Of a stretch of DNA of 64,000 bases, positions 5,795 to 49,096 are shown one piece after another. Under the pieces are notes generated by a model that did no database searches, was not told the DNA's origin, and saw only the letters and a program-made list of their open reading frames with translations. How positions within the stretch are numbered: position 1 is the first letter of the stretch; every line of letters starts with the position of its first letter. This DNA comes from Coprococcus sp. (lineage in GTDB: Bacteria > Bacillota > Clostridia > Lachnospirales > Lachnospiraceae): positions 117,621 through 181,620 of the forward strand of contig JAAWDY010000033.1 of assembly GCA_022793995.1 (NCBI GenBank), written 5' to 3'. Both the position numbers and the translations under genes were made by a program.

Positions 5795-6291
5795 TATCAG
5801 AAGAAGATGTGAACGCCAGAATTAACGAACTTGCAAAGAAGATCAGCGACGACTATGCCGGAGGGCAAGTACATTTGATCTGTATCCTGAAGGGCAGTGT
5901 ATTTTTTATGTGTGAACTGGCGAAGCGAATCACGGTTCCGGTTTCCATGGATTTTATGAGTGTGAGCAGTTACGGCAATGAAACTACGTCCAGCGGAGTC
6001 GTTAAGATCAAAAAGGATCTGGATGAAACGCTGAAAGGAAAGGATGTCATTGTGGTGGAGGATATTGTGGACTCCGGACGCACTTTGTACTATCTTTTCG
6101 ATATCCTGAAAGAAAGAGGACCGAAGAGTCTAAGGCTTTGTACGCTTTTGGATAAACCAGAGAGGCGTGTATGCGACGTGAAGGTGGATTATATCGGGTT
6201 TGAGATACCGGATGAATTTGTCGTGGGTTATGGTCTGGATTTTGCACAGAAGTACAGGAACCTGCCGTATGTTGGCTGTGTTAAAATGTAG
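5770..6291 (+). CDS. hpt: Hypoxanthine phosphoribosyltransferase
   Basis: This purine salvage enzyme joins hypoxanthine or guanine to PRPP to give IMP or GMP. The PRPP-binding loop is VIVVEDIVDSGRTL and the N-terminal flexible loop region is DFMSVSSYGNET; both are typical of the 170-180 residue bacterial HPRT. GGAGG at 5758-5762 is one base from the ATG at 5764 and seven from the ATG at 5770, so the protein more likely begins MAETIRVL. The start lies inside the end of tilS, suggesting translational coupling; tilS-hpt-ftsH is a classic conserved trio. Confidence 0.95.
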   Translation: MAETIRVLISEEDVNARINELAKKISDDYAGGQVHLICILKGSVFFMCELAKRITVPVSMDFMSVSSYGNETTSSGVVKIKKDLDETLKGKDVIVVEDIVDSGRTLYYLFDILKERGPKSLRLCTLLDKPERRVCDVKVDYIGFEIPDEFVVGYGLDFAQKYRNLPYVGCVKM

Positions 6292-6312
6292 AAAACGGAA
6301 GGGGTATTTTGC

Positions 6313-8124
6313 TTGAATAATAATAGAACAAGAGGGATAAGTGGACTTACGCTGCTATTTGGCATCGTTCTGATCGCTATAATATACTGGTTTGTGGGGA
6401 ATCCGGGAAGTCAGGAAGCTCCCTATACCTATCGGGACTTCCAGAATGGGGTGAAGGAGGATCAGATCACGCGTGTCGAGATCCGGCAGAACCGTGTTGC
6501 GCCGACAGGGACCATACGGGTCCAGGATAAAAAGGACGAGCTGCATGAGCTTCACGTTTCGGATGTAAATGAGATACAGGATTTTCTGGACTCCTATGAT
6601 GTGGAGTTTGAAGTGGCGGATGTTCCGCAGGACAGTTGGGTGGTGACGACACTGCTCCCGACCCTTTTAATGGTAGGAGCCGTGCTTTTTGTCGTTGCAA
6701 TGATGAACCGCCAGGGCGGGGCGAACGCCAAGGCTATGAATTTCGGAAAGAGCCGTGCCAGAATGAGCACGGAGCTGGATAATAAAGTCACATTTGCCCA
6801 GGTGGCGGGATTAAAGGAGGAGAAAGAGGAGTTGGAGGAGATTGTGGATTTCCTGAAGGCTCCTGGAAAATATACCCAAGTGGGGGCAAGGATACCGAAG
6901 GGCGTTTTGCTGGAGGGTCCTCCGGGGACAGGTAAGACTCTTCTGGCAAAAGCAGTCGCAGGAGAAGCGGGGGTGCCCTTTTTTACAATTTCTGGTTCAG
7001 ATTTTGTTGAGATGTTCGTAGGAGTGGGCGCTTCCCGGGTCAGGGATTTGTTCGAGGATGCCAAGGGAAATGCGCCATGTATTGTATTTATTGACGAGAT
7101 CGACGCGGTGGCGAGACGGCGCGGGACCGGTATGGGCGGCGGCCATGATGAAAGAGAGCAGACGCTCAATCAGCTCTTGGTAGAAATGGACGGTTTTGGC
7201 GTCAATGAAGGAATCATTGTGATGGCGGCCACGAACAGGGTCGATATCCTGGATCCGGCGATCCTGCGTCCGGGCAGGTTTGACCGTAAAGTTATGGTAG
7301 GAAGACCGGACGTCCAGGGACGTCTGGAGATTCTGCAGGTTCACGCCAAAGGAAAACCTCTGGGGGACGATGTGGATTTGGAACAGACCGCGCGGACAAC
7401 GGCTGGATTTACTGGGGCGGATCTGGAGAACCTTCTCAACGAGGCCGCGATCCTGGCGGCAAAAGAGGGAAGAGTCTATCTGCAGCAGTCCGATATCAGG
7501 CATGCGTTTATCAAGGTTGGAATTGGCGCGGAAAAGAAGAGTCGGGTGATTTCGGATAAAGAGAAAAAGATTACCGCCTTTCACGAAGCTGGACATGCTA
7601 TTTTGTTCCATGTCCTTCCAGATGTGGGACCTGTGTACAGCGTGTCGATCATCCCTACAGGAGTCGGCGCAGCGGGGTATACGATGCCGCTTCCAGAAAA
7701 AGATGAAATGTTTAATACAAAGGGTAGGATGTTGCAGGATATCACAGTGGCGCTTGGCGGCCGCGCGGCGGAAGAGATGGTGTTCGACGATATTACCACA
7801 GGGGCGTCGCAGGACATCCGCCAGGCAACCGCTTATGCGAAATCGATGGTTACCAAGTTTGGTATGTCTGAGCAGCTTGGCCTGGTAAACTATGATAATG
7901 ACAGCGACGAAGTATTTATTGGAAGGGACTGGGGACACACCTCCCGCGGGTACGGAGAGAAGGTTGCATCCACGATCGATATGGAAGTAAAACGGATTAT
8001 CGACGAGTGCTATGTGGAGGCGAAACGGATGATTGAGGAGCGTAGGGACGTACTGGATCGTTGTGCAGAGCTGCTGCTCCAAAAAGAGAAGATAACGAGG
8101 GAAGAATTTGAGGCACTGTTTTAG
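6313..8124 (+). CDS. ftsH: ATP-dependent zinc metalloprotease FtsH
   Basis: A membrane-anchored AAA+ protease that degrades misfolded membrane proteins and short-lived regulators. Order: an N-terminal transmembrane helix (about 10-29), an extracytoplasmic domain, a second transmembrane helix (about 112-130), the AAA module with Walker A GPPGTGKT, Walker B IVFIDEID and the second region of homology ([20 protein letters not shown]), then the zinc site HEAGH. It has 603 residues, the usual length. The start is TTG with GGAAGGGG eight bases upstream. It follows hpt by 21 bases, so it is probably cotranscribed. Confidence 0.96.
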
Positions 8125-46739: not shown

Positions 46740-46839
46740 GATGGGAGTTTGTAGATGGGCGTTAGAGATGGATATGCCTTGCATACAGGTGGAAAGAATG
46801 ATAAACTTAAGGCAAAATTAAGAGGGGAGTGCGGCGGCT

Positions 46840-47597
46840 GTGAAACGGAAATTTAATATTACCGGTATGTGTGTGCCGGAACAGCACTATATGGTTGATA
46901 TCAGCAGGCAGGTGTCGGAGATACAAGAGCAGGTGTGAAACGTGCGAAGAACAGGACAATCACCTTCTGGTCTGTGATACTTGCCGGGGTCTATGATGTA
47001 AAGAATCTGAGACGGAAACTGCGGACAAAAGAGGAACATAAAGAAAACAGTCCGTGGAATATTGCCGCTGATTTTGATGTCAAAATGAGTTTTGGACAGG
47101 AAGAAATTGCTGGGATGCTGTTGGAATATGAGGCCGACCATCATACCGGGATGGATGTAAGATATATGTCGGGACTTTTATATGATTACACATCCGGCTA
47201 TCCGTTTCTGGTATCAAAGCTGTGCAAACTGATCGCAGAAAGGACGGGAGGCGGGGAAGAACCGGACTGGAATCGGAGAGGTTTCTTGGCGGCAGAGCGT
47301 GTCCTGTCTTCGTCCGATCATTAATGGAATTGGAAATTATTATATTGAAGCGCAGACACGAGATATGGAGCGTACGGATGTAATTGTGGATTATCGCGGC
47401 GAACAGTTTGTGATTGAGTTAAAGATATGGAGAGGAGAAGCTTACCATAATAAAGGGGAGGAGCAACTGAGCGAATACCTGGATTCCTATCATTTACAAA
47501 AAGGATATATGCTTACTTTTAATTTCAATAGAAAAAAGAAATTGGTGTGAAAGAAGTAATGCGGGATGGGAAAATGCTGATGGAGGCTGTGGTATAA
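46840..47597 (+). pseudogene. Decayed AAA-like ATPase with C-terminal PD-(D/E)XK nuclease fold
   Basis: Pieces of one ancestral gene are spread over three frames. The start KRKFNITGMCVPEQHYMVDI (from a GTG at 46840 behind AGAGGGGA) hits a stop at 46938. A later ORF carries FWSVILAGVYDVKNLRRKLR and NIAADFDVKMSFGQEEIAGM. The C-terminal part is in another frame with TDVIVDYRGEQFVIELKIW, a PD-(D/E)XK-like D...E.K core, and a last frameshift separates KEVMRDGKMLMEAVV. The Walker A/B region is missing, so a deletion is likely. This family (ATP-binding, DUF1703-like) is abundant in Lachnospiraceae and Bacteroidetes. Confidence 0.8.
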
Positions 47598-47651
47598 ACA
47601 CGTTGATAAAAAATACTATGTGGGTAAGCCGCGGAACTGGGAGGGACATTT

Positions 47652-48116
47652 ATGCTGAAAATTATTTTCAACAGAGGCGCAAAGGATATAGAGGATGCAA
47701 ACTATGTATTTAGCCCGGATACCTATTTTAAATACAATTATGAGGACGAGTGGTTTGAAGATGAACTGGTGAAAGAGATGGTACAGGATGTGGACCGTTC
47801 AACAGTAGAATCAGCACATTCTATTAGCAGCCCAGTTCTCGGGATCATTGCCCCGGAAAGATTGTCGGGCGGTGTGAAAGCCCTCATCATTATGTATAAA
47901 GAACCCAATCTCATCGTGAATGCATCCGCCTGCGGCAATAACTGTGCAAAATGGATACTGGAGATTGGGAAGAGACAAGATATTACAATCAGGCTTGGTT
48001 ACGAGATGGAGTTTGAAGAACCTTTTGATATATGCATTGTGAATAGTGGAACGGTGATCCATAATTATTTAGATTTTCTAAAAGAGTTCCAGGAGGTGGA
48101 AATCTTTGAAGGGTAG
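47652..48116 (+). CDS. DUF4869-like protein
   Basis: A 154-residue acidic protein, not functionally characterised. It begins MLKIIFNRGAKDIEDANYVF and has a conserved-looking core with DVDRSTVESAHSISSPVLGI, then PERLSGGVKALIIMYKEP. This pattern resembles DUF4869 from memory. It lacks membrane segments. GGGAGG lies before the ATG. Its 3' end overlaps the start of the ATPase gene, so the two proteins are likely made together and may interact. Lower GC than neighbouring genes suggests acquisition. Confidence 0.72.
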   Translation: MLKIIFNRGAKDIEDANYVFSPDTYFKYNYEDEWFEDELVKEMVQDVDRSTVESAHSISSPVLGIIAPERLSGGVKALIIMYKEPNLIVNASACGNNCAKWILEIGKRQDITIRLGYEMEFEEPFDICIVNSGTVIHNYLDFLKEFQEVEIFEG

Positions 48117-49071
48117 TATAAAAGTTGTGGTTTCGACTAAAAAACTTCGGTATGAGCTGAATCTACGCAGAAATATTACAATTATTCAGGGAGACAGCGC
48201 CACTGGAAAAACAACGTTGATCCAGATATTAAGCGATTATCAGGCAGGAAGAACTGGTCCTGGTACAGAAGTAATAAGCAATAAAAAATGTGTTGTTTTG
48301 TCGGGGGATGCGGAAAGTGCGATAATAAGGTTAAGGTCATTGGCAGATACGATTGTATTTGTTGATGAGCAGGAAAAATTTTTATATTCTAAAGCGTTTG
48401 CAGAGGCAGTGTTGGATTCTGCCTGTTATTTTGTTTTCGTTACAAGAGACGGTCTGAACATGCTGCCATATAGTGTGAATGAAATCTATTACCTCAAAAA
48501 CAGTGGATATTATCAGAATACCAAACAGGTATATAATTCTATGCATCAGGTATATCCGAATCGAGAAGGGTTACAGAAGACAGAGCCGACTATTCTTCTT
48601 ACAGAAGATTCTAATGCAGGTTATGAGATGTACAAGAATATCTGTCACGGCACAAAGGTAATATGTAATTCGGCGGGCGGCAAATCCAATGTGGCAAAAT
48701 ATATTCTAAATAATAGGGATGAACGGATATTGGCTATTGTTGACGGCGCGGCTTTCGGTGCTGATATGCAAAGCGTGGTACATGCATTAGAAATAAGCAA
48801 AGGAAGCTACGTGTGGACTCCGGAATCATTTGAATATTTGATTCTAAAGTCGGATATTATTCAGGCGAAGGGGCTGAATAATATCATGGAGTCTCCTGAA
48901 GATTTTATCGAAAGCGGGAAATATTGCTCATGGGAAAGATTTTTCACAGGGTTGCTTGAAGAACTTACAAAAAATACGCCTTATGCTTATAGTAAAAAGA
49001 AGCTTAACCCGAATTACCTTACAAGGGGGAATATTGATAAGTTTAAAAAAATGATTCCATACGAAATTTAA
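48106..49071 (+). CDS. P-loop ATPase with possible TOPRIM-like C-terminal domain
   Basis: A 321-residue protein. The N-terminal half is an ABC/AAA-type P-loop domain with Walker A IIQGDSATGKTTLIQIL and Walker B TIVFVDE, and a following strand FVFVTRDGLNMLPYSVNEI. The C-terminal half has PTILLTEDSNAGYEMYKNI and LAIVDGAAFGADMQSVV, resembling the Glu and Asp-containing strands of a TOPRIM fold as in OLD nucleases; this is only pattern-level. TTG start, AGGAGGTGG six bases upstream, overlapping the previous gene. The composition is AT-rich. The pair could be a small defence or regulatory system; function unknown. Confidence 0.72.
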   Translation: MKGSIKVVVSTKKLRYELNLRRNITIIQGDSATGKTTLIQILSDYQAGRTGPGTEVISNKKCVVLSGDAESAIIRLRSLADTIVFVDEQEKFLYSKAFAEAVLDSACYFVFVTRDGLNMLPYSVNEIYYLKNSGYYQNTKQVYNSMHQVYPNREGLQKTEPTILLTEDSNAGYEMYKNICHGTKVICNSAGGKSNVAKYILNNRDERILAIVDGAAFGADMQSVVHALEISKGSYVWTPESFEYLILKSDIIQAKGLNNIMESPEDFIESGKYCSWERFFTGLLEELTKNTPYAYSKKKLNPNYLTRGNIDKFKKMIPYEI

Positions 49072-49096
49072 CTATAGAAAAGGAGGGGATATAAGC

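Follow-up and report, generated by a model that had tools for sequence, protein, structure and literature searches.

A DUF4869 protein and a P-loop ATPase as candidate halves of a split ABC/OLD-type ATPase in gut Firmicutes

Introduction

ABC-type ATPases power transporters and SMC complexes, act in DNA repair and underlie many of the switches used in phage defence. Ordinarily each subunit carries Walker A and Walker B motifs as well as a signature motif; ATP is held between two subunits, one contributing its Walker motifs and its partner the signature, and both elements normally reside on one polypeptide. In the OLD family nucleases, which include Class 1 OLD, Class 2 GajA and the Class 3 retron effectors, an N-terminal P-loop ATPase is followed by an alpha/beta TOPRIM-like domain (PMC7049728, PMC10568477). 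PARIS is built from the ABC ATPase AriA and the Toprim tRNase AriB (PMC12409363, PMC12839542), and in this system ATPase and Toprim reside on separate proteins (PMC10568477). PARIS and OLD supply precedents for the reading proposed below (PMC10568477, PMC12839542, PMC7049728).

Here we present a computational analysis of a gene pair from a Coprococcus sp. contig, found within a 64,000-nucleotide stretch of DNA that we refer to as the window. We propose, with a probability of roughly 0.58, that the two products make up one split ABC/OLD-type ATPase whose signature is provided in trans and which gates an effector domain. The broader form of this proposal, which we would put at even odds, is that a Walker half and a signature half exist as separate but co-inherited proteins with a single composite ATP site, that they serve as a modular switch for a fused or separate TOPRIM-like effector, and that they constitute a novel class of conflict systems, gated by ATP, of gut Firmicutes. 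No paper or family model that we found describes the pair as a system, in agreement with a preliminary description of the locus that had called it a candidate undescribed one. Our literature searches likewise returned no paper on DUF4869 and none on a split ABC ATPase of such a kind; earlier mention of either in ABC-ATPase classification work is possible.

Results and Discussion

Gene layout and distribution

The first gene (47652..48116, forward strand, ATG start) encodes a 154-aa protein, and the second (48106..49071, forward strand, TTG start) a 321-aa protein with a P-loop ATPase half and a C-terminal effector domain. The TTG start of the ATPase gene lies inside the 3′ end of the DUF4869 gene, and the resulting 11-nt overlap (48106..48116, forward strand) suggests translational coupling. 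Each gene is preceded by a Shine-Dalgarno-like sequence (GGGAGGG before 47652, and AGGAGGTGG at 48091-48099). The GC content is 0.405 at 47001-49000, compared with about 0.47-0.52 across most of the window. The small protein is a full member of Pfam DUF4869 (PF16163), a family that itself has no described function, and matches it well above the gathering score (154.9 bits against a cut-off of 28.9; E 1.2e-45; residues 19-143). The preliminary description had recognized from the letters of this stretch two overlapping, AT-rich genes, the first of them DUF4869-like; both points hold, as do the positions it gave. It had also placed a decayed AAA/nuclease gene upstream, and we recovered its fragments on the forward strand at about 46840..47597, beginning VKRKFNITGMCVPEQHYMVDIS and ending in a piece that matches PDDEXK_3 in Pfam (E 3e-5). 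A longer relative of this AAA-ATPase/PD-(D/E)XK gene is found elsewhere (L043:5708-7297). We considered the pseudogene as a part of the module and rejected it, as a related gene is present at only three other loci (L003, L007 and L043). Clustering of the neighbours revealed only general ABC-transporter and response-regulator clusters and no conserved third gene.

The pair and the pseudogene together occupy a 2357-bp intergenic stretch (46740..49096) between cls and ydcF. These two genes are only 42 bp apart in a sister species (G779; L175:874-915), and we read the difference as an insertion in the window, rather than a loss in the sister species, because the distribution of the family is patchy. 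DUF4869 matches occur in 78 of 397 Lachnospiraceae genomes sampled and in none of 14 control genomes, and a single Lachnospiraceae genome (G497) has as many as 10 matches to the family, a count that takes in strong and divergent matches, weak and partial ones included. Plasmid records from Ruminococcus albus, Agathobacter rectalis and Collinsella aerofaciens also contain DUF4869 genes, with the partner labelled 'hypothetical protein'.

Co-inheritance of the pair

A search of GTDB genomes with the ATPase yielded 44 related loci, mostly in Lachnospiraceae, and hence the pair is not a chance arrangement. Over all loci gathered, the ATPase gene is the immediate same-strand neighbour of 100 of 110 DUF4869 matches; part of these paired loci had been collected via DUF4869 alone, yet were still found to be paired. 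The DUF4869 gene comes first in 94 of the 100 pairs, the order is reversed in five, and one is a fusion. The 99 unfused pairs are separated by a median gap of 6 nt, and in 33 of them the genes overlap. The two proteins have also evolved in a correlated manner, in that their distance matrices across 61 intact pairs agree with r=0.841, whereas the highest value in 2000 permutations was 0.273. A second, divergent pair resides in the same genome as the window (L001, G000:C25:8849-9217), with 49% identity for DUF4869 and 40% for the ATPase. The coupled small-protein/ATPase arrangement that had been noted from one locus is thus supported by very strong co-occurrence, and the lack of co-occurrence in other genomes that had been named as a refutation is not what we observe.

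The one natural fusion (L151:2749-3675; G714:C3) joins a Walker half directly to DUF4869 in a single open reading frame and has no effector. Genes for AbiEii and DUF6577 adjoin it. Two viral contigs carry DUF4869 genes and no detected ATPase, namely L149 (IMGVR_UViG_3300028914_000064, 126 kb; 5899-6435 and 6675-7448) and L150 (6232-6450). One of the viral DUF4869 sequences is preceded by an extra N-terminal stretch of ~110 aa. It is possible that these partnerless genes encode phage decoys or counter-defence proteins.

Complementary motifs in the two proteins

The first 155 residues of the 321-aa protein form the P-loop half, with a Walker A motif (GDSATGKTT, 29-37) and a Walker B motif that includes the catalytic Glu (FVDE, 85-88). 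Among 31 aligned relatives, G29, S31, G34, K35 and E88 are invariant and D87 is nearly so. No ABC signature is present in any of these 31 polypeptides. In the AlphaFold2 model (pLDDT 90) the P-loop domain is compact: one helix and two short strands are all that separates the Walker A helix from Walker B, at the place where ABC proteins carry their signature lobe, and the model leaves no room for one. Searches by sequence place the protein poorly: no Pfam or NCBIfam family scores above its cut-off and the Pfam P-loop matches are weak; PHROGs and PADLOC give nothing convincing, the PADLOC matches to ATPase-Toprim, LmuB, PtuA and AriA being centred on the P-loop; and, apart from P-loop matches, single-sequence and profile searches of the PDB bring up no convincing relative of either ABC or TOPRIM type.

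The DUF4869 protein presents the reverse situation. It has neither Walker A nor Walker B, but residues 71-78 (about 47862-47885) read LSGGVKAL, an ABC signature of the kind that the ATPase lacks. The preliminary description, in calling this an uncharacterised acidic protein, had overlooked the motif. An L-S-G-G-V-K-T-L stretch stands out among 40 close relatives, and in a wider set of 21 proteins, with identities down to <20%, L65, S66, G68 and K70 of the motif (L-S-x-G-x-K) are among the few near-invariant positions, making the signature the most conserved feature of DUF4869 across divergent relatives. The motif of divergent members, LSSGCKTLLNI, is one that we take to resemble the signature of SMC/OLD-type ATPases, and it resembles that of ORFs matched in the profile ranking described below. 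In the AlphaFold2 model (pLDDT 92) a helix spanning residues 73-83 begins at SGG, so that the motif is predicted to lie at a helix N-terminus, as in ABC proteins.

Comparisons of predicted structure and of profiles point in the same direction. The top 50 Foldseek matches of DUF4869 in the PDB are mostly ABC-type, with the SMC head 1e69 first, followed by ABC transporters, PtuA and AriA, although the best E is only 0.034 and every match is individually weak and non-significant (E at least 0.03). In the viral library BFVD, ABC transporter, SMC and Rad50-like proteins dominate the top ranks. When 612 ORFs were ranked by hhalign with the DUF4869 profile, 15 of the top 25 were ABC-type by motif, against a background of 34 of 612 (Fisher p 1e-14), and column-shuffled profiles gave no comparable enrichment. 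This enrichment is lost once the 15 signature columns are masked, and a Pfam scan assigns an ABC family to none of the DUF4869 members. The sequence evidence for an ABC ancestry of DUF4869 is confined to the signature stretch, and the remainder of the claim would draw on predicted structure.

Some features count against a split ABC ATPase. We identified no Q-loop in the ATPase, and its H-loop position is occupied by Arg (TRD). Moreover, ABC signatures are degenerate in OLD proteins that nevertheless work (PMC7049728), so that family does not strictly depend on a signature.

A separable effector half that is often lost

A divergent subfamily (L157, L159, L160, L161, L163 and L164) provides a three-gene version of the module. 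Its ATPase is only ~140 aa long, its DUF4869 carries the LSSGCKTLLNI form of the motif, and the effector is a separate ORF located either before DUF4869 or after the ATPase. In hhalign, a profile of the separate effector shares 139 aligned columns with the C-terminal half of the 321-aa protein (prob 89.7, E 1.9e-6), whereas control alignments with the ATPase half and with DUF4869 give a prob of 0.1. Because the separate ORF matches only the C-terminal half, the ATPase/DUF4869 core and the effector are separable.

Decay also distinguishes the two parts. The ATPase gene is broken or truncated at 15 of the 44 loci found with the ATPase and the DUF4869 gene at two, with one more locus lacking DUF4869 at a contig end. 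Most lesions in the ATPase gene lie in its effector part and spare the P-loop half. For example, at one Mediterraneibacter site the gene is intact in one genome (L009), has lost nearly the whole effector half in another (L041) and carries a separate deletion across the second motif in a third (L039), while the flanks are otherwise nearly identical. Several of the loci with broken genes come from MAGs, so that single frameshifts are uncertain, but large deletions are harder to explain as errors. This pattern suits a harmful effector held in check by its partner, in a costly defence or toxin module.

Such selective decay, with DUF4869 retained, would also be expected if DUF4869 were instead a regulator or antitoxin that binds a stand-alone P-loop ATPase/effector, its LSGG being a convergent, generic phosphate-binding helix start and not part of an ABC half. 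The small-then-large gene order with overlap is typical of toxin-antitoxin operons, the sequence homology of DUF4869 to ABC proteins is limited to the motif, and the viral contigs carry DUF4869 genes with no ATPase detected. We nonetheless regard this alternative as unlikely, since ABC folds predominate among the best matches from two independent structure libraries, the loss of motifs is complementary between the partners, and the natural fusion joins exactly the Walker half and DUF4869.

Nature of the effector domain

The effector domain (about residues 156-321) contains the motifs ED (167-168), DGAAFG (213-218), PESFE (239-243) and WE (276-277), together with K297. Across 31 relatives E167, D168, D213, E240, E243, W276, E277 and K297 are invariant. 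The metal A ligands of P2 OLD are E398, D453 and D455 and those of metal B are E402, D541 and E543, in addition to K550 (PMC7049728); judged by their order in the sequence, E167, D213, E240/E243 and K297 could be the equivalent residues. The second Asp of the TOPRIM DxD is replaced by a near-invariant Ala215, the motif reading DGA in all relatives checked, and the Glu plus DxD ligand set of OLD is therefore incomplete. The best Foldseek match of the 321-aa protein in the PDB is the Thermus scotoductus OLD nuclease 6p74 (E 3.7e-4, prob 0.93), followed directly by GajA, and the Retron-Eco8 effector comes sixth; whole-chain TM-scores are low generally, that with 6p74 being 0.26. Mixed alpha/beta matches were left out of the argument. 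TOPRIM homology of the C-terminal half is undetectable by HMM against OLD proteins. Hence the earlier suggestion of TOPRIM-like Glu and Asp motifs stands for the invariant acidic positions, and that of an OLD-like partner for the fold resemblance, but a canonical TOPRIM site is absent. With DxD lacking and the homology invisible to HMMs, we call the domain only partly TOPRIM-like, with a non-canonical site, and infer its nuclease activity.

The genomic surroundings are of limited help in assigning a role. Among 284 neighbour genes, counted without a background control, most are housekeeping, with scattered examples of HsdS (type I specificity), BrxL, Cas10, DpdF, AbiE and Schlafen-AlbA. The gene-neighbourhood survey that had been proposed confirmed the pairing, but proximity to defence genes is occasional and not systematic, and we make no claim of enrichment. 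Class 1 OLD genes, too, are not found in defence islands (PMC10568477). In one genome a divergent DUF4869 and a mini-ATPase lie between HsdS and HsdR in an apparent type I R-M operon (L156:1-7001; G498:C57), adjoined by a gene for a DUF4238 protein, and at two other loci (L042 and L043) an apparent decayed hsdR follows. A Schlafen AlbA_2 domain is present in 6 of 136 neighbour proteins (L194-L232), which may reflect background abundance.

The mainly housekeeping neighbours, the absence of DxD and the many lower Foldseek matches of the large protein to non-nuclease alpha/beta folds might be taken to indicate that DGAAFG marks a ligand-binding or protein-interaction relative of TOPRIM/Rossmann domains. 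The pair would then be a signalling or housekeeping switch, for which Cran1, an OLD protein with a non-defence role, is a precedent (PMC12796447). We find this doubtful. E167, D168, D213, E240 and E243 are invariant, and the E-D, D and FE motifs recur in the divergent separate effectors; a housekeeping role is also difficult to reconcile with a family that is patchily distributed, reaches 10 matches in one genome, decays frequently and has copies on plasmids.

Proposed mechanism and comparison with known systems

If the pair is indeed a split ABC/OLD-type ATPase, the 321-aa protein, which has only the Walker motifs (A and B), and DUF4869, which has only the signature, would come together as an asymmetric heterodimer, or as two heterodimers that dimerize, and DUF4869 would complete the composite ATP site in trans. 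ATP binding or hydrolysis, on some trigger, would in turn restrain or free the C-terminal TOPRIM-like domain. Once free, this domain is expected to act as a metal-dependent nuclease, on RNA or on DNA, that harms the cell, and the whole would constitute a mobile module, most likely an anti-phage/abortive-infection or toxin-antitoxin-like device. Were this correct, the pair would be a minimal, dissectable ABC switch of about 155 + 145 residues, would give a functional assignment to a Pfam family of unknown function that roughly one in five of the Lachnospiraceae genomes sampled carry, and would be a candidate defence or toxin system of gut bacteria.

That the pair is instead a PARIS/OLD system that has diverged but kept the ordinary architecture, DUF4869 being an accessory, is quite improbable: the best fold matches include OLD, GajA and Retron-Eco8, and PARIS also separates its ATPase and Toprim (PMC10568477), but no OLD-like TOPRIM, AAA_15 or AAA_21 domain scores above cut-off, the ATPase model has no space for a signature lobe, and the AriA and AriB/DUF4435 that define PARIS are not found, PADLOC AriA matching only around the P-loop (E at least 0.015) and neither PADLOC AriB nor Pfam DUF4435 at all.

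A split ABC/OLD-type ATPase may still work in an OLD- or PARIS-like manner, and we file it as a variant of these systems rather than as a member because it lacks both a signature in cis and DxD. It shares with the OLD family the order of a P-loop ATPase followed by a TOPRIM-like domain, the best fold match, and invariant E, D and E/K positions that are plausibly equivalent to metal ligands. In contrast to OLD, its ATPase is only ~155 aa long and has no signature lobe, the second Asp of DxD is Ala, and a near-obligate small partner carries the signature. As in PARIS, an ABC-type ATPase is coupled to a TOPRIM-type effector that can be separate or fused, and the divergent copy inside a type I R-M operon is reminiscent of anti-restriction sensing; the split, however, runs through the ABC ATPase itself, rather than being limited to the boundary between ATPase and Toprim. 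Heterodimeric ABC ATPases with one degenerate site offer a further parallel, as their composite ATP site combines the Walker motifs of one subunit with the signature of the other. Whereas such subunits retain a mutated copy of the complementary part, each partner of the DUF4869 pair lacks that part outright.
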